The notes under the pieces are model-generated. The model searched no databases. It saw nothing but the letters and a program-made list of their open reading frames with translations, and was not told the origin of the DNA. The position numbers were made by a program, and so were the translations under genes. From Candidatus Baltobacteraceae bacterium (lineage in GTDB: Bacteria; Vulcanimicrobiota; Vulcanimicrobiia; Vulcanimicrobiales; Vulcanimicrobiaceae), in NCBI GenBank assembly GCA_036489885.1, contig DASXEW010000003.1:1054001-1118000 (forward strand): DNA of 64,000 nucleotides, written 5' to 3'. Shown here piece after piece: positions 2,868 through 57,673 of the stretch (positions are counted from its first letter, which is position 1; the number at the start of each line of letters is the position of its first letter).

Positions 2868-2914
2868 TGTCATCCCGAGCGTAGCGCCGCAGGCGCGAAG
2901 TCGAGGGACAGCGC
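2868..2914. repeat. dispersed intergenic repeat, copy 1 (single arm)
   Basis: Starts GTGTCATCCCGAGCGTAG and ends TCGAGGGACAGCG, with a variable GC-rich centre between (CGCCGCAGGCGCGAAG). The same flanks recur at 17455-17576, 47655-47707 and 57506-57673. It fills nearly all of the gap between acnA and the next gene, whose TTG start is 3 nt downstream. This copy is one arm only, without the inverted partner seen in copies 2 and 4. Confidence 0.75.
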
Positions 2915-4628: not shown

Positions 4629-7600
4629 GCCGCCTTTTTTGCCGGCCAGGATCTGCTCGAGCGATTCGGGTTCGCGCGGCGGCGGCGAGAATTTCAGGTA
4701 AACGATCGGGACGAGCAGCAACGTCAGGAGCAGCGAGCTCGTAAGACCGCCGATGACGACGGTTCCGAGCGAACGTTCGGCTTGCGAGCCCGGATCGAGC
4801 GCGAGCGCTAGCGGCAGCATGCCGGCAATCATCGCGCACGTGGTCATGATGATCGGACGGAACCGTTCCATCGCGCTTTCGCGTACGGCCTCGATCTCAT
4901 CGAGCCCCGAATGGCGCAGACGATTCGCAAAATCGACAAGCAAGATGCCGTTCTTCGTGACGAGACCGATCAGCAAGACGGCGCCGATGAACGAAAAGAG
5001 GTTCAGCGTTTCGTGCGCGAGCGCGAGCGAGCCCAAGGCGCCGACGACTGCAACGGGTACGGAAAACATGATGACGAACGGCGTGCGATAGCTGTCGTAA
5101 AGCGCGACCATCAACAGATAGACGAGCGCGATCGAGAGCAGGAGCGAAACGCTCATCCCGACCACCGTGTCGTGCACCGATTGCTGGTTGCCGCCGGTAA
5201 TCGGCTGAACGTGCACGGTCGGGGGCAAGTGCAATTGACGTACGCGCGCGTCGAAGGCGCGTTGAACGTTGGAAAGTTCGGCGCCCGGCGCGATGTTGGC
5301 GCCGATGTAAACGACGCTTTGACGATCGATGCGCGCGATCAGTGGCGGCGCGGGTGCGTATTGCAAGTGTGCAATATCGCCGACGTGGACGATCTGACCG
5401 CTGTTCGAGCGGACGGGGATTGCCGCGATAGCTGCGAGGTTCGTTTGATCGCGCTGCGGATAGATGACTTGAACGTCCTTGAGCCCATCGACGCCCGTGA
5501 ACTGTGTCGCAATGACACCGCCGAACGCTGCGCGGATCGCCGTCGATGCGGTTCCGATCGACGTGTTGAGCGTACGGGCGCGGTCGCGATCGAATTGAAC
5601 CTCGACCTGCGGCGAATCATCGGTTCCGGTCGTCGTGACGTCGACCGCACCTTTTGAATTCAGGAGTGCTTGATAGACCTGCACCGCATATGGCGCCGGA
5701 TCGACGTCGCCGGTCGCGCTGACGACCTCGTCGATCGGTTGCTGGATTCCACCTTGAATGTCAGTCGCAGGGATCACGACGATTTTCGCGCCGGAGGCGA
5801 TGCGCTGTGCGCGAGCCTGAATGCGTGTCGTCCACGTGGCTGTCGACTGCGAACGATTAGGCCGCAGAAATAAGTGCAGCTGCCCGATCGCGCCGTTGTT
5901 GATGTAGCCCGAAAGGTTCCCAACGTATGCGCCGGCGAGCGCCGTCTCCGCGGACACGTCCGGAATCGTATCGATGTAGCGCTCGACAGCGAGGACGCCT
6001 TGGCGCGTCGTCTCGAGCGGCGTTCCGGTCGGATACGTCAGCGTAACGTAGATTTCACCGCGATCGACCTGCGGAACGAATTCGAACCCGACGATACCGA
6101 GAGGGATTAGCAGCAACGCGAGTGCGAGCGAGCCGAATGAGATGATGACGACGGCGAGCCGTTTTTCCAGCGCCCACTCGAGTGCGCGTGTTACGTACCA
6201 TCCGCGCAGCGAATCGAACCCGGCAGCGAACGAATCGATTATGCGCCACGGACGCCACTTCGAGAGCAGCGACCAGCGGCCGGCAAGGGCCGGCGTTACC
6301 GTGAAGGAGACGAACAGCGACGTGAGCGTCGCCACCGTGACGACGAGTCCGAATTCGCGCAAGAACAACCCGACCGAACCCGGCAAGAACGAGATCGGTA
6401 AGAAGACGACCACGTCGACGAGCGTGATGACGATGGCGGCGACGCCGATCTCCATTCGGCCGCTGACCGCAGCATTGCGCGGATCCTCGCCGTTTTCGTG
6501 ATGGCGCTCGATGTTTTCCAATACGACGATCGAGTCGTCGACCAAAATGCCGATGATCAGCGTCATCGCGAGCAGCGATACCGTGTCGATCGTGAAGTTG
6601 GCCATCCGCATCGCCGCGAGCGTGACGAGCAGCGACGTCGGGATCGCGAGCATGACCACAACCGCATTGCGCCACGAATGCAAGAAGAAGAGCATCACGA
6701 TTCCGGTAAAGATGATCGCTTCGATCAGCGTGCGGATAACACCGGAAAGCTGCTCTCTGGTGTAGGTAGCTTGAACGTTGAGAACGTCAAAGTGAATGTT
6801 CGGATACGCGCGCTCGAGCCCGGGCAGAGCGCGCAGCACAGATTCCGATGCCTGGACTTCGCTCGTGTTGCTGGCTTTTTGCACGTCGAGCGCGATGCTT
6901 TGCGAGCCGTGCGTGTATGCATAGACTCGCTGAGGCTCGAACGTATCCGTAACGCTTGCAATGTCGCCGATGCGGAAGAGCCGTGCGGACGAACCGAACG
7001 CATTTGTTCCGGACGGCGTCGACGTCGATCCGCCGCTGACCAGCAAATCGGCAACCGAAGGCGGCGTGGTGACATCACCGCGAATGTCGATATTGGTCTC
7101 GCGATTCGGCGCGTATGCGATTCCGCCGGGCGCGCGGACGTTGTTGTTCGCGATCGTGTTGGTGACGTCCGTGAGCGTCAACCCCGAAGCGAGCAGTTGA
7201 TTCGGATGGACGTTCACCTGGATCGACGGATTCACTGCCCCGTTTTCGACCACGTACGAAACGCCCGGGATTTGCTCGAGCGAAGGGACGACGCGATTCG
7301 TAACGACCGAAGAGAGCTCGCCGGGCTGTAGCGAGTTGGAGCTCGCGACCAACGAGACGACGACTGCTTCGCTCGGATCGTAGATTGAGACTTGCGGCGT
7401 CGTTAGGTCGTTCGGCAATTGGCGTTGCGCGTTTTGGACGCGGCCCTGGACTTGAACGAGATCGGTGTTTACGTCCGAGGAAAGCATGAAGTGCGCGACG
7501 ATCGTCGCCTGTCCCGACTCGATCGACGTTTCGATCGTGTCGAGGTTGGGCGCGCCCGCAATCTGATCTTCGAGCGGCCGAACGATTGCATCGCGCAGCT

Positions 7601-7772
7601 CGCTGGTCGACGCGCCCGGATACGTGATGAGTACTTGAATCGTCGGAACGTCGTAGTTGGGGAACTGCTGTTTGACCAGGACGACGGCTGCAATGCCGCC
7701 CGCCAACATGGTCAAGAGAACGAAGACCGTTACCAGTGTCGGACGTTGAACGAAAAGACGTGTGATCTGCAT
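4605..7772 (-). CDS. RND efflux permease, HAE1 family, second of tandem pair (1055 aa)
   Basis: Inner-membrane proton-driven multidrug exporter subunit. It begins MQITRLFVQRPTLVTVF, the usual first transmembrane helix. The TM4 proton-relay pair is visible in GILVDDSIVVLENI, followed by EIGVAAIVITLVDVVVFLPI. The second half repeats the topology, with GLVTKNGILLVDFAN and RFRPIIMTTCAMIAG. Length is typical (1020-1060 aa). Its ATG overlaps the stop of the upstream permease as TAATG, so the two are translationally coupled. The order adaptor-permease-permease matches MdtABC-like systems in which two permeases form one hetero-trimer. No outer-membrane factor gene is nearby. Confidence 0.93.
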   Translation of the reverse strand: MQITRLFVQRPTLVTVFVLLTMLAGGIAAVVLVKQQFPNYDVPTIQVLITYPGASTSELRDAIVRPLEDQIAGAPNLDTIETSIESGQATIVAHFMLSSDVNTDLVQVQGRVQNAQRQLPNDLTTPQVSIYDPSEAVVVSLVASSNSLQPGELSSVVTNRVVPSLEQIPGVSYVVENGAVNPSIQVNVHPNQLLASGLTLTDVTNTIANNNVRAPGGIAYAPNRETNIDIRGDVTTPPSVADLLVSGGSTSTPSGTNAFGSSARLFRIGDIASVTDTFEPQRVYAYTHGSQSIALDVQKASNTSEVQASESVLRALPGLERAYPNIHFDVLNVQATYTREQLSGVIRTLIEAIIFTGIVMLFFLHSWRNAVVVMLAIPTSLLVTLAAMRMANFTIDTVSLLAMTLIIGILVDDSIVVLENIERHHENGEDPRNAAVSGRMEIGVAAIVITLVDVVVFLPISFLPGSVGLFLREFGLVVTVATLTSLFVSFTVTPALAGRWSLLSKWRPWRIIDSFAAGFDSLRGWYVTRALEWALEKRLAVVIISFGSLALALLLIPLGIVGFEFVPQVDRGEIYVTLTYPTGTPLETTRQGVLAVERYIDTIPDVSAETALAGAYVGNLSGYINNGAIGQLHLFLRPNRSQSTATWTTRIQARAQRIASGAKIVVIPATDIQGGIQQPIDEVVSATGDVDPAPYAVQVYQALLNSKGAVDVTTTGTDDSPQVEVQFDRDRARTLNTSIGTASTAIRAAFGGVIATQFTGVDGLKDVQVIYPQRDQTNLAAIAAIPVRSNSGQIVHVGDIAHLQYAPAPPLIARIDRQSVVYIGANIAPGAELSNVQRAFDARVRQLHLPPTVHVQPITGGNQQSVHDTVVGMSVSLLLSIALVYLLMVALYDSYRTPFVIMFSVPVAVVGALGSLALAHETLNLFSFIGAVLLIGLVTKNGILLVDFANRLRHSGLDEIEAVRESAMERFRPIIMTTCAMIAGMLPLALALDPGSQAERSLGTVVIGGLTSSLLLTLLLVPIVYLKFSPPPREPESLEQILAGKKGGLEEAPIR

Positions 7773-10700
7773 TAGGTGCTACCCGCCCCCACGGGCGTGC
7801 GCGGCGCAGGCTCGAGGTTCGAGGGCGGCTCGTGCGATTGGAAATGGCGCGGGGCCAGCCACACGAAGGCGACAGGGACGAGCACGAGCGTGAGCAGCAG
7901 CGAGCTGGTGAGCCCGCCGATCACAACGATACCGAGCGAGCGGCGTACTTCGGAGCCTGGTTCGAGCGCGATGGCAATCGGCAGCATGCCGGCAATCATC
8001 GAGGCCGTCGTCATGACGATCGGACGGAATCGCTCTTGAGCGCTTTCGCGAATCGCGGTGTAGCGGTCGACTCCGGCGCGAATATGATGATTCGCGAAAT
8101 CAACGAGCAGAATGCCGTTCTTCGAGACGAGACCGATCAACATAACCGTGCCGATCAGCGAGAAGAGGTTTAGCGTCTGGTTCGCAATTGCAAGCGAGCC
8201 GAGTGCGCCGACGGATGCAACCGGAATCGCAAACATGATGATGACCGGCAAGACGTAGCTGTCGTAGAGTGCGACCATCAACAAGTACACGAGCGTAAAC
8301 GAGAGGATCAGCGCCCAGCCGAGACCGCTGACGGTCTCCGCCAGATTCTGCTGTTGACCCCGCGCGTTCGGAATCACGTGGACGGTGTTCGGCAGATGAA
8401 GCGCGGCGACGCGTTGCAAGAACGCGCGCTGCACGTTTGAGAGGGCAATCCCCGGCGTCGTGTTTGCGCTCACGTGCACGACGGTTTGGCGATTCGTGCG
8501 TGTGATCAGCGGCGTGTTCGGATCTTGCACGAGCTTCGAGACGTCACCCGCGTACGTTACTTGCCCCGTCTTGGTGCGCACGGGAATCCGATTGATCTCG
8601 TCGACGGACGATTGCGCGCTTTGCGGATACGTCACCTGAACGTACTTGACGCCCAGGTTGGTGAAGAATTGAGCCGCGGTTGCGCCGCCGAACGCGGCGC
8701 GAATTCCGTTAGCCGCCGAAGCGATGTCGACGTCGAGCGCGCGAGCGCGTTCCCGGTCGAAAACGACGTCGACCTGGGGAGCAAGGATCGAGGCATTGCT
8801 TACCGCGTGAACGATCCCCGGCGTCGATTCCAAGACGGCGAGGATCCTGGCTGCATACGGATTGGGGTCGTCATTATCAGAGGTGATATTGTAATCAATC
8901 GGTTGTGCGTTGCCGCCGCCGGTTCCGGTGGCGGGGATAGCGACCGGATTTCCGCGCGCATATTTCTTGCGAGCCATTTGCGTCAGCGCCGTCGCCCAAA
9001 AGGTCGTTGAGTGTTTGCGCTTATCTTTGAGGAAGACGTGAATCTGGCCGACCGAGCCTTGCGTCACGCCGCCGCCGAAGCCGGCTTGATAGGATCCGGC
9101 CGTTCCCGTCTGCTTCTCGACATCGGGGATTTTTGCGATCTGTTGCGTGAGATCGGCGATCGCAGCATTTGTCGTCGCGAGCGGCGTCCCCGTCGGGAAG
9201 GTGAGCTGCATGAATATTTCGCCGCGATCGATCGGCGGAATGAAATCGAAGCCGATCACGTGCAGCGGAATGAGGCTGATCGCTCCGATGACGGAGAGCA
9301 CGCACGCGATCATCACGCTGCGCGGGTGACGTAAGCCCCACTCGAGGACGTGCGTCAGATACCATGTGCGCACCGCTTCAAAGCCGCGCGTGAAGGCTTC
9401 AACGACGCGCGGTGCTTTATGCGCTGAGAGCAGCGACCAGTTTCCGGCCAGCGCCGGCGTGACCGAGAACGAAACCGCGAGCGACGTCAATGTCGCGACG
9501 ACGACGACGAGCCCGAACTCGGAGAGGAAACGGCCAGTGACGCCGGGCAGGAACGAGATGGGCAAGAAGACGACGACGTCAACGAGCGTGATGACGATGG
9601 CGGCCGCGCCCATCTCGGTACGGGCCAGCAGCGCGGCCGTCTTGGGAGCCTCGCCGCCTTCGAAGTGCCGCTTGGCGTTCTCGAGGACGACGATCGAATC
9701 GTCGACCAGGATTCCGATGCAGAGCGTCATCGCGAGCAGCGAGATCGTATCGATCGTAAAATTCGCAAGGCGCATCACGAAGAGCGTCGTCAGCAAGGAC
9801 GTCGGAATCGCGATCATCACGACGATCGCGTTGCGCCACGAGCGCAGAAAGAACAACATCACGATCCCGGTGAAGATGATCCCTTCGGCGATCGTGTGAT
9901 AGACGGCGCTGAGCTGCTGTTGCGTGTACGTCGCTTGGTTGTTCAGGACGTCGAAACTGATGTTCGGATATTCTGCCCGCAGGCGGGGCAGGGCGCTCGT
10001 GACATTTTCTGCCGACGCGATCTCGCTCGCGCCGGTCGCTTTCTGAACGCCGAGCGAAATTGCAACCGTCGGCCCGACGTACGAATATGTACGTTGCACT
10101 TCCGAAGCATCGATGACGCTCGCGACGTCGCCGATTGCTACCGTACGTTGCGAGACACTCCATGGGTTGAGCGTCGAGGTTGAGGCGGATTGCGCGATCG
10201 AAAGCGGCGAGGTCGTTCCGGCCAGCGCCGATGATGTTGCCGCCGTCGAGCTTCCAACCGGCGCACCTTGGCCGACGCCGCGCAAACCAGTTCCACCCTG
10301 GGGGCCGGTGAGTGACGCCGCGCCGGTCGAACCGGCCGACGCCGCATATAAGGGAAGCTTGACGACGGACGCGACGTCGGTGACGTCACCACGAACGTCG
10401 ATCGACGTCTCACGATCGGCTCCATACGCGAGACCGCCCGGCGCGCGCAAGTTGTTGTTCGAGATGGCTTGCACGACGTCGCCGATGACGAATCCCGACG
10501 ACGAGAGCGTCTTCGGATCAACATAAACTTCAATCGCCGGAGCCACCGTCCCGTTCGCATTGACGTTTGAAACGCCGTCGATCTGCTCGATCTCGGGGAC
10601 GAGATTGTTAGTGACGATCGCGGAGAGGGCTGCGCGCGTGAGCGTTCGTGATGAAATGGATAGCGTCACGACCGTCGCCTGCCCCGGATCGAACGTCCGA

Positions 10701-14603: not shown

Positions 14604-17465
14604 TTGAACGCGCTCGAGGAGCGCTTACGTAAGGAAGTCCAAGGCGACGTCGCCTTTGATGCGGTTACGCGCGCACTGTACGCGACCGACGCGTCGATCT
14701 ATCAGATCGAGCCGCGCGGCGTCGTCATTCCGAAAACCATCGACGACATCGCGGCGGTTATCGGCGTGTGCCGCGAAGCTGGTGTGCCGGTCTTGCCGCG
14801 CGGCGCCGGGACGTCGCAATGCGGACAAACCGTCGGGAACGCCGTCGTCGTCGACACCAGCAAGCATCTGCGCGCCATCGAGGATCTCGACGCGTCGTCG
14901 CGCCGTGTTCGCGTGCAGCCCGGACTCGTTCTCGATCACCTCAACGCGCGGCTGAAGCGCGAAGGGCTTTTTTTCCCCATCGATCCGTCGACCGCCAGTC
15001 GCGCAACGCTCGGGGGCATGACGGCGAACAATTCCTCAGGCGCGCGCTCGATCCGCTACGGCATGATGGTGCACAACGTTCTCGGCGTCGATGCAATCCT
15101 CGCCGACGGTACGCGTGCTGCCTTCGACGACGGTGCGCCAAACGGTGTCGCGCCATTGATCGAACGTCTGCGCGCGATCGCTTCGAGCGAGGCCGACGAG
15201 ATCGCAAAGCGATTCCCGCATGTCATGCGCCGCGTGGGCGGCTACAATCTCGACGCAATCAAGACCGGGCCGTTCAACACGGCGAAGATTCTCGTTGGGT
15301 CTGAAGGGACGCTCGCATTCTTCACGTCGATCGAGCTGATGTTGCAGCCGCTGCCGCGCGAACGCGTGCTTGGGATTTGCCATTTTCCGCGCTTTCACGA
15401 TGCCATGGTCTCGACGAAAGATCTGGTGAAATTCGATCCGGTCGCGGTCGAGCTCGTCGACCGCACGATGCTCGAGCTCTCGCGTACGAACCCGGCCTTC
15501 GCGCCGACGATCGAGCGTTATGTCAAAGGGCGTCCTGATGCGATCTTGCTGGTCGAGTTCACGGGTGACGATGCAACATTGTTGCGTCCGAAGCTCGACG
15601 AGCTGGACGAGTGCATGGCGGCGCTCGGCTTTCCGAATGCGGTCGTGAAAGTCACCGACGCCGCCGCACAGAGTGAGATTTGGTCGGTCCGCTCGGCGGG
15701 CCTGAACATCATGACCTCGATGAAAGGCGATGCAAAGCCGGTTTCGATCATCGAAGATTGTGCCGTCGATCTCGAGCATCTCGCCGATTACACGGCGCGC
15801 CTGACCGAGATCTTCGAAAAGTACGGAACGTACGGCACATGGTATGCGCATGCGTCGGTTGGCTGTCTGCACGTGCGCCCGGTGCTCAACGTCAAGCATG
15901 ACGAAGACGTCGGCAAGCTCCGCGCGATCGCGGAAGAAGCCTTCGCACTGGTGCGTGAGTATGGCGGCTCGCACTCCGGGGAGCACGGCGACGGCATCGT
16001 GCGCTCCGAGTTCCACCGCGAGATGTTCGGCGAGCGCATCGTGCGTGCGTTCGAAGACGTCAAGGATGCCTTCGATCCGAAGGGGCTGTTCAATCCCGGC
16101 AAGATCGTTCGCCCGCCGCTGATGGACGATCGTTCGCTCTTTCGATATCCGCCGGGCTACGAGCCGATCAACCTGGATACCGCACTCGATTGGTCGGAGT
16201 GGGGCGGATTCTCGAGCGCCGTCGAGATGTGCAACAACAACGGCGCCTGCCGCAAGAATTCGGACGTCATGTGCCCGTCGTACATGGTGACGCAAGACGA
16301 GGAGCACGTCACGCGCGGGCGCGCCAACGCGCTGCGGCACGTCTTAACCGGACAACTCGGACGCGATGCGCTCACCTCGGAACGGATGTACGACGTGCTC
16401 GATTTGTGCGTGAGCTGCAAAGGCTGTCGTCGCGAGTGTCCGACCGGCGTCGACATGGCGCGCATGAAGATCGAGTTTCTGCATCACTATCGCAAACGGC
16501 ACGGGTGGCGCACGAAGGACCGGATCGTTGCGAGCTTGCCGCGCTATGCGCCGTTCATGAAGTACGCAAACGCGCCGACACGCTTGCGGAATGCGCTTGC
16601 GCCACTCGCACGCGGAACCGAAAAGCTGAGCGGATTTTCGGCAAAGCGCTCGGTTCCGGTGCCGTCCGCGCGCCCGTTTCTGGACGATTCGCTGCGACGT
16701 CAAAACGGGCCGCCGCCTGTCGGCGAGGTCGTGCTCTTCGTCGACACGTTCAATCGCTATTTCGAGCCGCAGAATGCGCGCGCGGCGCTGCGCGTCCTCG
16801 AAGCGGCGAAATACGACGTCATTTTCCCGACGCTGCGCGACCGTGGGCGGCCGCTCTGCTGCGGACGTACCTATTTAGGTGCGGGGATGGTCGATGAGGC
16901 GCGGCGTGAGATGCAGCGGGTCATCGCCGCTCTTGAAGAACCTGCACGGCGCGGAATTCCGATCGTCGGCCTCGAGCCGTCGTGCTTGCTGACGTTACGC
17001 GACGAGTTGCTCGCCGTCGTGCCGGGCGAGGCTGCGAAGACGATTGCATCGCAGGCGTTGCTGTTCGAAGAATTTCTGGTGCGCGAGAAATGCGAAGGGC
17101 GCTTGAATCTCAACCTGCATCCGCTTGCGGAGCAGAAGGCCTACGTGCACGGACACTGCCATCAAAAAGCATTCGGCGCGTTCGCCCCGGTGTTGGAAAC
17201 GCTGCGCATGATTCCGTCGCTCGAGGTCGTGCCGATCGATTCGAGCTGCTGCGGCATGGCCGGCAGCTTCGGTTATGAGATCGAGCACTACGAGATCTCG
17301 AAGAAGATGGCGGAGCGTTCGCTGCTTCCCGCTGTGCGGTCTGCCGGCGAACGCGACCTGATTGTCACCGACGGAACGAGTTGCCGCCACCAAATCGCCG
17401 ATCTTTCCGATCGCAAAGCGCTTCACGTCGCGCAGGTCCTCGACCGCGCCCTCCTGTCATCCTGA
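14604..17465 (+). CDS. fused FAD-linked oxidase and 4Fe-4S/CCG-domain protein (GlcD-GlcF-like, 953 aa)
   Basis: Single chain combining the two halves of glycolate or D-lactate dehydrogenases. The FAD-binding_4 domain is at about residues 30-210 (PRGAGTSQCG), then an FAD-oxidase C-terminal domain with ASVGCLHVRP and GEHGDGIVRSE. Two Fe-S motifs follow at about 540-610 (CNNNGACRK..CP and CVSCKGCRRECP). The heterodisulfide-reductase-like CCG domain is at about 750-900 (LCCGRTYLG, HGHCHQKAFG, SSCCGMAGSFG). TTG at 14604 is chosen because it follows the aminotransferase stop by 4 nt and precedes the first conserved residues. The final LLSS and stop are encoded by repeat copy 2. Likely membrane-associated electron donor to quinone or ferredoxin; D-2-hydroxyglutarate or D-lactate are alternative substrates. 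Confidence 0.9.
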   Translation: MNALEERLRKEVQGDVAFDAVTRALYATDASIYQIEPRGVVIPKTIDDIAAVIGVCREAGVPVLPRGAGTSQCGQTVGNAVVVDTSKHLRAIEDLDASSRRVRVQPGLVLDHLNARLKREGLFFPIDPSTASRATLGGMTANNSSGARSIRYGMMVHNVLGVDAILADGTRAAFDDGAPNGVAPLIERLRAIASSEADEIAKRFPHVMRRVGGYNLDAIKTGPFNTAKILVGSEGTLAFFTSIELMLQPLPRERVLGICHFPRFHDAMVSTKDLVKFDPVAVELVDRTMLELSRTNPAFAPTIERYVKGRPDAILLVEFTGDDATLLRPKLDELDECMAALGFPNAVVKVTDAAAQSEIWSVRSAGLNIMTSMKGDAKPVSIIEDCAVDLEHLADYTARLTEIFEKYGTYGTWYAHASVGCLHVRPVLNVKHDEDVGKLRAIAEEAFALVREYGGSHSGEHGDGIVRSEFHREMFGERIVRAFEDVKDAFDPKGLFNPGKIVRPPLMDDRSLFRYPPGYEPINLDTALDWSEWGGFSSAVEMCNNNGACRKNSDVMCPSYMVTQDEEHVTRGRANALRHVLTGQLGRDALTSERMYDVLDLCVSCKGCRRECPTGVDMARMKIEFLHHYRKRHGWRTKDRIVASLPRYAPFMKYANAPTRLRNALAPLARGTEKLSGFSAKRSVPVPSARPFLDDSLRRQNGPPPVGEVVLFVDTFNRYFEPQNARAALRVLEAAKYDVIFPTLRDRGRPLCCGRTYLGAGMVDEARREMQRVIAALEEPARRGIPIVGLEPSCLLTLRDELLAVVPGEAAKTIASQALLFEEFLVREKCEGRLNLNLHPLAEQKAYVHGHCHQKAFGAFAPVLETLRMIPSLEVVPIDSSCCGMAGSFGYEIEHYEISKKMAERSLLPAVRSAGERDLIVTDGTSCRHQIADLSDRKALHVAQVLDRALLSS

Positions 17466-17576
17466 GCGTAGCAACGCGAGCGTTGCGTAGTCGAAGGACA
17501 GAGATAATGCAGAAGGTTAAGATTTTCGCTGTCCCTCGACCACGGCGCACGTCGTGCACCTACGCTCGGGATGACA
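17455..17576. repeat. dispersed palindromic repeat, copy 2 (two inverted arms)
   Basis: Left arm 17455-17500 runs TGTCATCCTGAGCGTAG to GTCGAAGGACA. The right arm 17530-17576 is its inverted counterpart (TGTCCCTCGAC to CTACGCTCGGGATGACA). Each arm also has its own small GC palindrome (GCAACGCGAGCGTTGC and GGCGCACGTCGTGC). The arms are separated by an A/T-richer stretch. It sits between two convergent genes and could form a large hairpin acting on both 3' ends. The stop codon of the oxidase gene lies inside the left arm. Confidence 0.8.
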
Positions 17577-47397: not shown

Positions 47398-48477
47398 TCA
47401 AAACGTAGTCGGCGCCTTTACGGTCCAGGCGTCGTCGCCCGAATGCTCGAGATAACCCGCCACTTCGAGTGCTTGCAAGACCTCGACAGTCAGGGCGCGT
47501 TCGTGTTTGTTCGGCATGCCCGCCCAACGCATCGCGATCTCGCCGGCTTCGAGCTGCGCGCCCGGAACGAGCAGCTCGCGAACGAATTGTATGCGAAGAC
47601 CTGAGCGCTCCATGCGGCGCGCATGTGGTTCGAGTGCCGACTCGAGTGGGTCGCTGTCCCTCGACTCCGCACCCTCGCTCGGCGAGGGTGCTACGCTCGG
47701 GATGACACTAGGGGGCGGGCTCGCTTGCGGAGCGTTCTGTGTGCCGACGAGATGTGCGGTGCGAGACAAGAATGCGTCCGTGACGCGCGGGAAATGCTCG
47801 CCGAGCGCGACTGCGGCAGTCTGCCACGGAACTGCGTTGAGCTCGCGCGGGCGTTTCGCGAGTGCGCTCCAAATCTTGCGCGCTACAACTTCGGGCGAGA
47901 CGCGCATCGGTTTCGGTGCGCCGGCGAGACCTGCGCGTTCCATGAACGGGGTATCGACGACACCGGGATCGACGTACGTCACGGCGACGCCGAAGCGTTG
48001 CAATTCGCGGCGCAGGAGCGAGGTCGCTGAGCGCAGCGCGGCTTTCGCCGGAGAATACGCCCCAAGTCCATCGACGGGGACACGCGCGACACCAGAGCCG
48101 ACCATTACGACGTGACCGCGCGCTGCTTGCAACGCGGGAAGCGCTTCACGCACCAGCGCTATTGGCCCCGTGACATGCGTTGCAAATTGGCGTCTCAGCG
48201 CCTCATCCGTTTGCTCGACGAGCGCTCCGGCCGATGCTTCTCCGGCATTGTTGACGAGCACATCGATTCGTCCGCATTTCTCGAGCGCAAAGGAGACGAT
48301 CCGTTTGGCCGCGCCGGCCTCGCCGACGTCTGCAACCAGCGTAGCGACGCCGGTGAGCTCACCGAGCCGCGTAGCATCGCGACCGACGCCGACCACGCAC
48401 AATCCGGCCCGTACCGCACGCAGCGCAAGGGCACGGCCGATTCCGGAAGATGCCCCTGTTATAAGGATCGTAGTCAC
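47398..48477 (-). CDS. SDR-family oxidoreductase with embedded repeat and C-terminal extension (359 aa)
   Basis: Residues 1-250 are a classical SDR: ITGASSGIGRAL, NNAGEAS, VGSGVARV (Ser), and AYSPAK (YxxxK). Residues about 257-275 (SVIPSVAPSPSEGAESRDS) are encoded by a copy of the dispersed repeat read in frame. Residues about 275-359 form a separate region (GLRIQFVRELLVPGAQLEAGEIAMRW, LTVEVLQALEVAGYLEHSGD) that looks helical with a winged-helix-like end. The repeat may mark an old fusion point. The ATGA overlap with the next gene suggests coupling. Confidence 0.85.
   Translation of the reverse strand: MTTILITGASSGIGRALALRAVRAGLCVVGVGRDATRLGELTGVATLVADVGEAGAAKRIVSFALEKCGRIDVLVNNAGEASAGALVEQTDEALRRQFATHVTGPIALVREALPALQAARGHVVMVGSGVARVPVDGLGAYSPAKAALRSATSLLRRELQRFGVAVTYVDPGVVDTPFMERAGLAGAPKPMRVSPEVVARKIWSALAKRPRELNAVPWQTAAVALGEHFPRVTDAFLSRTAHLVGTQNAPQASPPPSVIPSVAPSPSEGAESRDSDPLESALEPHARRMERSGLRIQFVRELLVPGAQLEAGEIAMRWAGMPNKHERALTVEVLQALEVAGYLEHSGDDAWTVKAPTTF
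47655..47707. repeat. dispersed repeat, copy 3, inside the SDR gene
   Basis: TGTCCCTCGAC ... CTACGCTCGGGATGACA, with an inner palindrome CACCCTCGCTCGGCGAGGGTG. Same flanks as the copies at 2868, 17530 and 57571. It lies wholly inside a coding frame and creates no stop there. Confidence 0.85.
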
Positions 48478-49643
48478 GTCGCACCGACCAATCTCAAGTG
48501 ATTTGCATAGGCCGCCTTCACGTCCATCGGCGGTGCGTAGTAATCCGATTCAATCAGCTCCGGTTGCGGCGCGGAGGCGACGTCGGATTCGGCGCGTGCA
48601 AAACGTGCGAGCGCTTCGACGACGGGCTTCGGCGAGCCGTCCGCACGCCACGCGCCGAAGCGAAATTCGTGCGGCGCTCGATCGAAGGGCGGCGTGTCCC
48701 GTAGCCTTTGGTCGTAATCGGTGTAGCACCACCAATATGCGCCCAGCGCTCCGCGCTTTTGAAGACGTTCGATAACGGCGGTCGCATATGCCGCCATTTC
48801 CGCCTCGTTCAAGCAAGGATGTCCTGAAAGATTCGGTCCCTCGGGACATTCCGGATTTCCGAACTCGCTGACCAACACGCGCTTGTTGCTGAACGACGCC
48901 ATTAGCTCGTAGTAGAACGGCATGACTTCGGGATCGAGGCGGTCACGCGCAAACGTCGCATAGGCCGAGTAGCCGTGCATCGTCGCAAAATCCCATGGCG
49001 CGCACATCGCCGACGGACGAATATTACGATCTTGCTCGACGTCTTCGCCATGGAGTCCGCCGGTCACCGGAAGTGCGGAAGCGCGCCGCAGCTCGTGCGT
49101 CAGCATGTCACTCCAGCTCAAGCCGTCGGCGATCGTCGTAGGCGTCCGAAGGTTGCTGAACTCGTTGCCGAGATCCCAAGCCTCTATCGTTTCGTTTCCG
49201 CGAAAGTGCGCGCCGATTGTGCGAACGGCGAAACGTTGCGCATCCAGCAACGGTCCGCGAGCGTACATGTCGCCGATTCCCCACGGCTCGACTTTGCCGT
49301 TCGCAATTGTGCGAAAACGCACCGACGGGCTCCCACGGTCGAGCGTCCAGCGCGGTAGCCAATTGACGCCGCTCATGTGGCCGCAAAAGAGCGTGGGCAT
49401 CCCACGCAGACGGTGCGCGGCCAGAAGCTCGAGGAGCCGCTCCATCTTGGCGAGCGAGTCGCGATCTATGCGATCTTCGTCGGGTTGGAAGGTCTCCCAC
49501 ATCAAGAAGAAGCGCACGCTCTGTAAACCGGCGGCCGAAATGCGCGAAAAATCCTCTTCGAGCGTATCCGGATCGAAATGCGTCCACATCGACATTGCGG
49601 TGCGAGCCGGCCAATAGTTGATTCCAAGACGAAACGGCGGCAT
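48474..49643 (-). CDS. GH5-like glycoside hydrolase (389 aa)
   Basis: TIM-barrel hydrolase. The acid/base Glu161 is in [10 protein letters not shown] and the nucleophile Glu260 in [25 protein letters not shown] at the start and [11 protein letters not shown] are typical of GH5/GH42-like enzymes. No signal peptide is visible, so it is probably cytoplasmic and acts on small glycosides. Its stop overlaps the ATG of the SDR gene. Confidence 0.82.
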
Positions 49644-50146: not shown

Positions 50147-51297
50147 GCTTCGGAACGATTGGAATTCTCGGTGGCGGCCAGCTCGGCCGCATGCTGACTC
50201 TCGAAGCCAAGCGGATGGGCTATCGCGTGATCACGCTCGAGCCGCTTCCGAATTCACCGTGCGGACAAGTCGCTGACGAGCAGATCGTCGCGGCGTACGA
50301 CGACCTGCGCGCAATCGGCGAGCTCGGTGCGCGATCCGATGTCATCACGTACGAATTCGAGAATATCCCGCGCGAAGCGGTTGAAGCGCTCGAAAACGAT
50401 CGCCGCCTCGTGCGTCCCGATGCAAGCGTATTGCGCGCGACGCAAGATCGTATTTTGGAAAAGACGTTCTTGCGCAAGAACGGTGTCTCGACCGCCGATT
50501 TCGCACCGGTCGCGAACGAGAGCGAGCTTGCCTTCGCCGAAAAGACGATTGGGTATCCGGCAGTTCTCAAGACAACGACCGGCGGCTACGACGGGAAAGG
50601 CCAATGGGTCGCGCGTTCGAGCGAACAAGGCCGCGCCGCGCTCGTTGCTAGCAAGGGCGCGCCGCTGATTTTCGAGCGCATGATTCCCTTCGATCGCGAG
50701 CTGGCGATCATCGCGGCCCGTAACATTCGCGATGAGATCGTCACCTTTCCGGTTACCGAAAACATCCACGATCACGGCGTGCTCTCGACGACGATCGTCC
50801 CGGCACGCGTACCGGCGCGCGATGCCCAGCGCGTCCGTGAGATCGCGATTACGATCGGCCGCGCGCTCGGCATTACCGGCGCCTTTGCCGTTGAATTCTT
50901 TTGGAGCGAGAGCGGTGAGCTGCTCGTCAACGAGATTGCACCGCGCGTGCACAACAGCGGGCACTACTCGCTCGATGCAACGCAAATCTCGCAGCACGAA
51001 GCCCACATCCGCGCGATCTGCGATCTGCCGCTGGTCGAGCCGCACATGTTGGCGCCGGCTGCGGTGATGGTAAATATACTCGGCGCGGGCAGCGGCGATC
51101 AGCTGGACGGAATCGACATCGTCCTGCGCGAACGCGATCTCAAGCTGCATCTTTATGGTAAGGCTCACGCGGCGTTGCGCCGCAAGATGGGCCACTTCAC
51201 GGTCCTCTCTTCCGACGTAGCAGCAGCGCTCGCCGTCGCGGAACGAGCGCGCACGCACTTGCGATGGAGCGATCGCCGTCAAGGGATCGCCGTATGA
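50143..51297 (+). CDS. purK: N5-carboxyaminoimidazole ribonucleotide synthase PurK (384 aa)
   Basis: ATP-grasp enzyme carboxylating AIR, supplying Pur[22 protein letters not shown] at the start, [24 protein letters not shown] for ATP, and [17 protein letters not shown] near the C-terminus. The GTG start overlaps the purE stop. Confidence 0.96.
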
Positions 51298-51370
51298 TCG
51301 ACTGAGCTTCGAGGACGATTACGAACGTCCGGTAATTCGAGCCGCGGCCGGCGACGTACGCGGACTCGAT

Positions 51371-51820
51371 GTGCTCGATCTCGGCCCGGCGGGCAGCGAA
51401 CACGCGCAGTGGCTCGACGAACACGGCGCGCGCATTGTCTCGGTCGATCCGAACGAACACGATCTCCGCGAGCCGCTGCCGCAACAAAAAGAATCCGTCG
51501 ATCTCGTATTCTCGTCGCTCACGCTGCACTACGTGCGCGAGTGGGAGCCGCTCTTCCGTGAATTCCGGCGGGTTACGCGTCCGGGCGGATCGCTCGTGTT
51601 CTCAACGCACCATCCGTGCCGCGGCTTGCACGACGGCCTCGGGGTCGACTACTTCTCAACCGGACTCGTCGTCGATGATTCTCGCCGTTACTGGCGCCGC
51701 CCATTGCAATCGATCGTCCACGCAATCGTCGAGACGGATTGGCGCATCGTCAAAATCGTCGAGCCACGCATCGCCGAAGCGGTCGATCCGTGGTTCGTCG
51801 TCGTGAAAGCGAGCCGCTGA
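51371..51820 (+). CDS. SAM-dependent methyltransferase; true start unclear (149 aa from GTG)
   Basis: Class I fold: VLDLGPAGSEHAQWL (motif I with Pro-Ala instead of Cys-Gly), VSVDPNE, ESVDLVFSSLTLHYVREW, and EFRRVTRPGGSLVFSTHHP. The frame is open upstream to about 51293, where it reads [16 protein letters not shown], a typical N-terminal helix of these enzymes. That part has no ATG, GTG or TTG; only CTG at 51302 is present. Either a rare start is used, or the gene is N-terminally degraded or frameshifted. It follows purK directly. Confidence 0.7.
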   Translation: MLDLGPAGSEHAQWLDEHGARIVSVDPNEHDLREPLPQQKESVDLVFSSLTLHYVREWEPLFREFRRVTRPGGSLVFSTHHPCRGLHDGLGVDYFSTGLVVDDSRRYWRRPLQSIVHAIVETDWRIVKIVEPRIAEAVDPWFVVVKASR

Positions 51821-57495: not shown

Positions 57496-57505
57496 TTATC
57501 CCACT

Positions 57506-57673
57506 GTTATCCTGAGCGTAGGCGCGAAGCGCCGTAGTCGAAGGACAGCGACAGAGGTGAAGGACGAGGTTGTCGCTGCCCTTCGACTTCGCTCCCTTCG
57601 GTCGCTACGCTCAGGGTGACACGGAAGCGCCTACACTCAGGGTGACACGGAAGCGCCTACGCTCGGGATGACA
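57506..57673. repeat. dispersed palindromic repeat, copy 4, with 26-bp tandem units
   Basis: Left arm (about 57506-57551) reads ATCCTGAGCGTAGG..GTAGTCGAAGGACAGCGAC. The inverted right arm (57571-57621) follows as TGTCGCTGCCCTTCGACTTC..CTACGCTCAGGGTGACA. Two further 26-bp units follow (57622-57647 and 57648-57673), each CGGAAGCGCCTAC followed by RCTCRGGRTGACA. Located between a plus-strand gene and the convergent MOSC gene. Confidence 0.85.

Follow-up and report, generated by a model that had tools for sequence, protein, structure and literature searches.

How does a palindromic repeat come to be read as part of a protein? The question is raised by an SDR-family gene in the window, i.e., the 64,000-nucleotide stretch G000:C3:1054001-1118000 of the source genome G000 (3.48 Mb; phylum Candidatus Eremiobacterota, to judge by the named records in which orthologues lie), whose features are collected in Table 1. 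An earlier note had placed a repeat copy at about residues 257-275 of this gene, free of stops, and a direct reading of the coding strand bears this out. The 54-nt palindrome at window positions 47654-47707 reads TGTCATCCCGAGCGTAG-CACCCTCGCCGAGCGAGGGTG-CGGAGTCGAGGGACAG on the coding strand, stands there in the context ..CCTAG-TGTCATCCCGAGCGTAGCACCCTCGCCGAGCGAGGGTGCGGAGTCGAGGGACAG-CGA.., and encodes S257-S275 (SVIPSVAPSPSEGAESRDS) in phase and without a stop. The copy scores 61.6 bits with a covariance model of the element, and its RNA fold is somewhat better than that of shuffled sequences (z -2.1).

Table 1. Features of the window that bear on the repeat copy and its host gene (positions count from the first letter of the window).
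Feature	Position	Strand	Basis and remarks
SDR-family gene holding the repeat	47398..48477	-	ORF, GTG start, 359 aa; Pfam adh_short; family orthologues
SDR catalytic domain, residues 1-245	47743..48477	-	GxxxGxG, S128, Y141, K145 kept
Inter-domain linker, residues 246-276	47650..47742	-	disordered in model, hypervariable among orthologues
REP-like palindrome, in frame, residues 257-275/276	47651..47707	-	arms TGTCATCCCGAGCGTAG, GTCGAGGGACAG(CGA); inner stem GCACCCTCG/CGAGGGTGC
Conserved C-terminal winged-helix-like domain, residues 277-354	47416..47649	-	without Pfam match
Upstream gene, 389 aa, glycoside-hydrolase-like by eye	48474..49643	-	ORF; conserved neighbour
Element copy	2868..2914	+	covariance model, 69.4 bits
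Element copy, half of head-to-head pair with 17526..17576	17455..17504	+	covariance model
Element copy, half of head-to-head pair with 17455..17504	17526..17576	-	covariance model
Element copy, half of head-to-head pair with 57573..57621	57505..57551	+	covariance model
Element copy, half of head-to-head pair with 57505..57551	57573..57621	-	covariance model

The repeat status of the copy, also claimed by the note, is evident from its arms: the 3' arm GTCGARGGACAGCGA has 65 genomic matches at up to one mismatch (reversed control, 0), while exact copies of the 5' half-site TGTCAYCCYGAGC number 176 (control, 0). Taken as a whole, the 57-nt SDR copy finds a single genomic match at up to three mismatches, namely itself, because the inner stem varies while the conserved arms are multicopy. 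Along this line, an alignment of 24 copies reveals two conserved arms flanking a variable, self-complementary inner stem, and the covariance model yields a consensus structure of 14 pairs. A census of fetched stretches, in which this model scored 150 candidates, counted at least 126 copies in G000, a copy number far beyond chance, and close pairs are mostly arranged head to head (28 +- versus 4 ++). The element is a REP-like interspersed palindrome, non-coding and mainly intergenic in G000. A longer element of approximately 190 bp was observed at L255 (G000:C3:49406-49595 and 51227-51416), at L249 (G000:C1:209538-209730) and at about ten more places. It consists of two head-to-head REP-like ends about 145 bp apart with a conserved, partly palindromic core (..CGATCGTGCCC..), and is possibly a MITE or a paired-REP unit. 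In genome G009, at least eight element copies follow one another in tandem at C1:68593-69041, spaced about 59 bp apart, and an inverted array comes next.

The earlier note had suggested that the element spreads into genes. It does so, but rarely: among 125 sites examined in G000, six or seven copies in about five genes (approximately 5%) are intragenic with a coding signal. Bacterial genomes are mostly coding, and the element is therefore strongly depleted from genes. Convincing in-frame hosts are the SDR gene, a GlcE-like FAD oxidase and the tail of a LipB-like protein; further ones are a phosphoesterase and a secreted-looking protein, each with the copy in its N-terminal part. The GlcE-like FAD oxidase (L287, G000:C1:364413-365573) carries two in-frame copies, RVTLSIASAASEVEGQR and FGGPSTTGAQGAPYARDDT, both absent from 26 orthologues. 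In the LipB-like lipoyl transferase (L021, G000:C1:172086-172125), the C-terminal tail is encoded by an element copy (GVIPSEANGVEGER). Eleven further sites in G000 had been considered as intragenic candidates; six of them were dropped, as the ORF was short or one side was without coding signal.

The host protein has a clear domain plan, and the copy lies in the linker between its two domains. A Pfam search of the 359-aa protein matched adh_short at residues 3-181 (E 5.6e-39) and gave no family for the C-terminal domain. The AlphaFold2 model has a mean pLDDT of 91.8, and its segments below 50 are confined to residues 256-273, i.e., to the insert. The position between the SDR domain and a C-terminal region, as described in the note, thus holds; the region is, however, not "extra" but a conserved domain, present in 89 of 99 family genomes. 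It is predicted confidently (pLDDT 93.7) and resembles a winged helix, although Foldseek matches are weak (best E 0.05). Its WAGMPNK motif is invariant, and it is possibly an undescribed Eremiobacterota family. Intact orthologues follow one plan, an SDR domain, a Pro/Ala-rich linker of very variable length and the conserved domain of about 80 residues, and the SDR catalytic residues are invariant in an alignment that includes the carriers of the repeat. The upstream glycoside-hydrolase-like gene overlaps the SDR start by 4 nt, and this gene order is retained at no fewer than 67 of 81 orthologue loci in the fetched flanks.

For the comparison of linkers, 81 family orthologues with both domains readable were searched for the half-site TGTCA[TC]C[CG][CT]GAGC at up to one mismatch; several of the genomes are incomplete metagenome bins. 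The half-site was found in 15 linkers (G054 being a weak match), where shuffled linkers lead to an expectation of 0.08. The coding parts that flank the linkers in these genes, 77.5 kb as compared with 10.6 kb of linker searched, contain it nowhere. The remaining 66 linkers are without the half-site. The insert is consequently not an ordinary part of the protein, since most orthologues lack it, and the earlier proposal of a tolerated in-frame insert similar to Rickettsia palindromic elements is supported. Orthologues with the same peptide had been named as the finding that would speak against that proposal. Similar peptides do exist, SVILSVA in G009 and LVIPSV in G002, but they stem from separate copies of one repeat family, on separate branches. 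Within the genus there is no orthologue, G001 (80% complete) giving no match, so that the state before insertion is not directly readable.

The repeats in the linkers are those resident in the respective genomes. Carriers amount to 15 of 54 repeat-rich and none of 27 repeat-poor genomes (Fisher p=0.0016, uncorrected for kinship, with neighbouring species not independent). The inserts belong to several repeat types. The G000 type occurs in the linkers of G000, G002 and G009 and twice in that of G073, while the CTGAGCCTGTCGAAG type occurs in G005, G048, G060 and G074 and, as its reverse complement, in G044. This second type is absent from the genomes of G000 and G002 and present in those of G005, G074, G044, G048 and G060; it is the type of several linkers of genus g36. 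Linkers of G059 and G045 hold tandem or mixed repeat arrays, and those of G046, G050 and G056 hold other types. Frames and orientations of the inserts differ as well, giving peptides such as VILS, CHPE/CHAE and VILRQAQDD, and all carrier linkers are in phase and stop-free. Insertion has recurred independently elsewhere in the family: the distribution on the tree takes 11 Fitch changes, or 12 gains if losses are excluded, and a cautious count with neighbours merged leaves at least six lineages (G000, G002, G005, G074, G009 together with G073, and genus g36). Length does not set carrier linkers apart (medians of 108 nt in carriers and 111 nt in the rest, p=0.88). Growth by addition alone, with no loss to offset it, is thus not demonstrated, and turnover by insertion and deletion is likely.

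Very probably, then, a REP-like palindrome of a mainly intergenic kind entered an SDR/winged-helix fusion gene at its flexible Pro/Ala linker. It would have been kept because it is in phase and leaves the frame open, the linker presumably tolerating almost any sequence. An improbable alternative is a single insertion in the family ancestor, followed by loss or erosion in most lineages. The orientation and the VI[LP]S frame common to the linkers of G000, G002, G009 and G073 could be read in this sense, and shared flanks in the g36 subclade suggest an inherited insertion there that was later remodelled. The shared frame is no proof of common descent, however, because it is largely forced by stop codons: read forward, the G000 consensus has VIPS as its sole stop-free frame, and the CCTGAGC variant has two such frames, this one included. 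The scatter of carriers on the tree and the differing repeat types argue against the ancestral event, and the G009 linker copy is identical, letter for letter, to several other copies in its own genome. Moreover, a palindrome of about 50 nt would hardly stay intact while the protein diverges to approximately 50% identity.

Marginally less probable still is that the linker is a former intergenic spacer, repeat included, and that adjacent SDR and C-terminal genes were fused by loss of a stop. A stop triplet often directly precedes a copy, and the two domains are separate in G041, G051, G052, G058 and g47, as this explanation would have it. The fused form, however, is found in nearly all genera and the split forms are scattered tips, so that fission looks derived; most fused linkers, furthermore, are repeat-free. 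That the gene is decaying, or that the insert is an assembly error, seems hardly credible. Repeats are, as a matter of general knowledge, common breakpoints of short-read assemblies, but in every carrier both sides form one gene in phase, and the assemblies of G000 and G048 comprise just 4 and 5 contigs, respectively. Conserved catalytic residues, a conserved C-terminal domain and dN/dS values below 1 speak against decay.

These values, obtained for the C-terminal domain from pairs of carriers, are about 0.06 (G009/G073), 0.14 (G060/G044) and 0.31 (G059/G045), and indicate that the domain downstream of the insert is under purifying selection in the pairs tested. A full-length protein is probably made from the carrier gene, and the insert would presumably be neutral for it. 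In genus g47 (L164, L166, L170), the SDR part is missing at this place and the C-terminal domain forms a standalone 96-aa ORF, directly after the conserved upstream glycoside-hydrolase-like gene. In G051 (L153), G058 (L147), G052 (L173) and G041 (L192), the SDR part and the C-terminal domain lie in different frames; these four splits are apparently recent fissions. As the domains are separate in all of these, the tether between them is dispensable, which would explain why the linker sequence hardly matters.

Tolerance is the simplest reason why this linker captures repeats. A second factor is likely, namely a preference for pyrimidines at the TGTCA end, which the CCN proline codons of the coding strand would satisfy. 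Two observations hint at such targeting. Genome-wide, pyrimidines make up 66% of the 8 bases before the TGTCA end against a background of 49%, with C at 39% against 31% (p=0.009). In linkers, C makes up 54% of the sequence before the copies, compared with 40% in repeat-free linkers, and proline (CCN) accounts for 22% of linker codons. Of 19 half-sites, 17 lie on the coding strand (p=0.0007, uncorrected for kinship), an orientation that stop codons alone would not favour. One may go further and regard the SDR linker as a true hotspot, in which repeats target the pyrimidine-rich DNA that proline codons supply on the coding strand beside the TGTCA end. New linker sequence would then arise chiefly through cycles in which repeats insert, decay and are deleted again while the length stays roughly the same. 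We put this forward tentatively and with some doubt; if it is true, resident palindromes are a standing supply of protein linker material. The manner in which the element moves we infer rather than observe. A search with PF01797 for a RAYT/Y1 transposase gave no match in the 95.9% complete genome, where controls were positive, and a comparison of flank identity with shuffled pairs showed no clear excess that would indicate target-site duplication at the offsets and lengths compared (z at most 2.2 among 24 tests).

Among known systems, the GTAG/CGTC REPs are short, high-copy, mostly intergenic palindromes that form head-to-head dimers and lie inside ORFs in a minority of cases (PMC3733652). Such intragenic REPs are known in many bacteria, different REPs occur at about the same place of recB in two Xanthomonas species, and insertions in flexible linkers or loops were proposed to be possibly neutral (PMC3733652). 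The G000 element is likewise a short palindromic stem-loop of high copy number, mainly intergenic and arranged in head-to-head pairs. It differs in that a single linker has taken up different repeat types in at least six lineages of one family, in that its hosts are Eremiobacterota and, from GTAG REPs in particular, in that its genome is without RAYT. REPs of these super-families have an unpaired GTAG or CGTC tag at one end. In G000, the inner stem has an almost invariable GTAG at its foot, but this is internal to the conserved arms, and in G073 it is GNAG.

Rickettsia palindromic elements (RPEs) are described as about 150 bp long, with nearly half of them inserted in ORFs; they are read in frame within unstructured segments of genes that are not related to one another (PMC10969869, PMC2996958). 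The likeness lies in in-frame palindromes within genes (here SDR and GlcE-like) whose orthologues are insert-free, and the difference in an element of about 50 nt, with about 5% of copies in genes, read in several frames and both orientations. PARCEL are palindromic coding repeats that encode protein segments, spread, and form dedicated coding tandem domains (PMC2996958); the present element is likewise palindromic, spreads and contributes segments to proteins, but is mainly non-coding and read in several frames. Prokaryotic MITEs are small and non-autonomous, with inverted-repeat ends, and are mostly intergenic with occasional ORF fusions (PMC10969869). Size, inverted-repeat ends, intergenic location and occasional ORF fusions are found here as well; unlike in MITEs, target-site duplication was not detected at the copies compared. 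With no RAYT and an unclear tag, the element is not classed here with the GTAG REPs, nor is it classed with RPEs or MITEs.

That palindromic repeats are read in frame inside genes is known already, from RPEs and from REPs (PMC3733652). Our literature search found no account of a single linker that, throughout a whole family, has captured different resident repeats time and again in independent events. Nor did it find a paper that treats this repeat in Eremiobacterota, sequence searches giving papers unrelated by their titles. Here insertions have landed in one linker again and again and keep rewriting its sequence, and this recurrence appears to be new. It constitutes a replicated natural experiment, in which a single linker, followed through dozens of species, has received several repeat types in many separate events. 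One can thus ask directly by what route a non-coding repeat turns into protein, in which frames and orientations it survives, and whether tolerance alone or actual targeting is at work in the linker. For annotators it is a warning that REP-like peptides, e.g., VILSLSKD or CHPELVEG, can be genuine parts of conserved proteins and not false ORFs.

Elsewhere in the window, positions 4703-9842 contain long direct repeats that share 76-78% identity at a distance of about 3.16 kb, suggestive of a block of genes duplicated in tandem.
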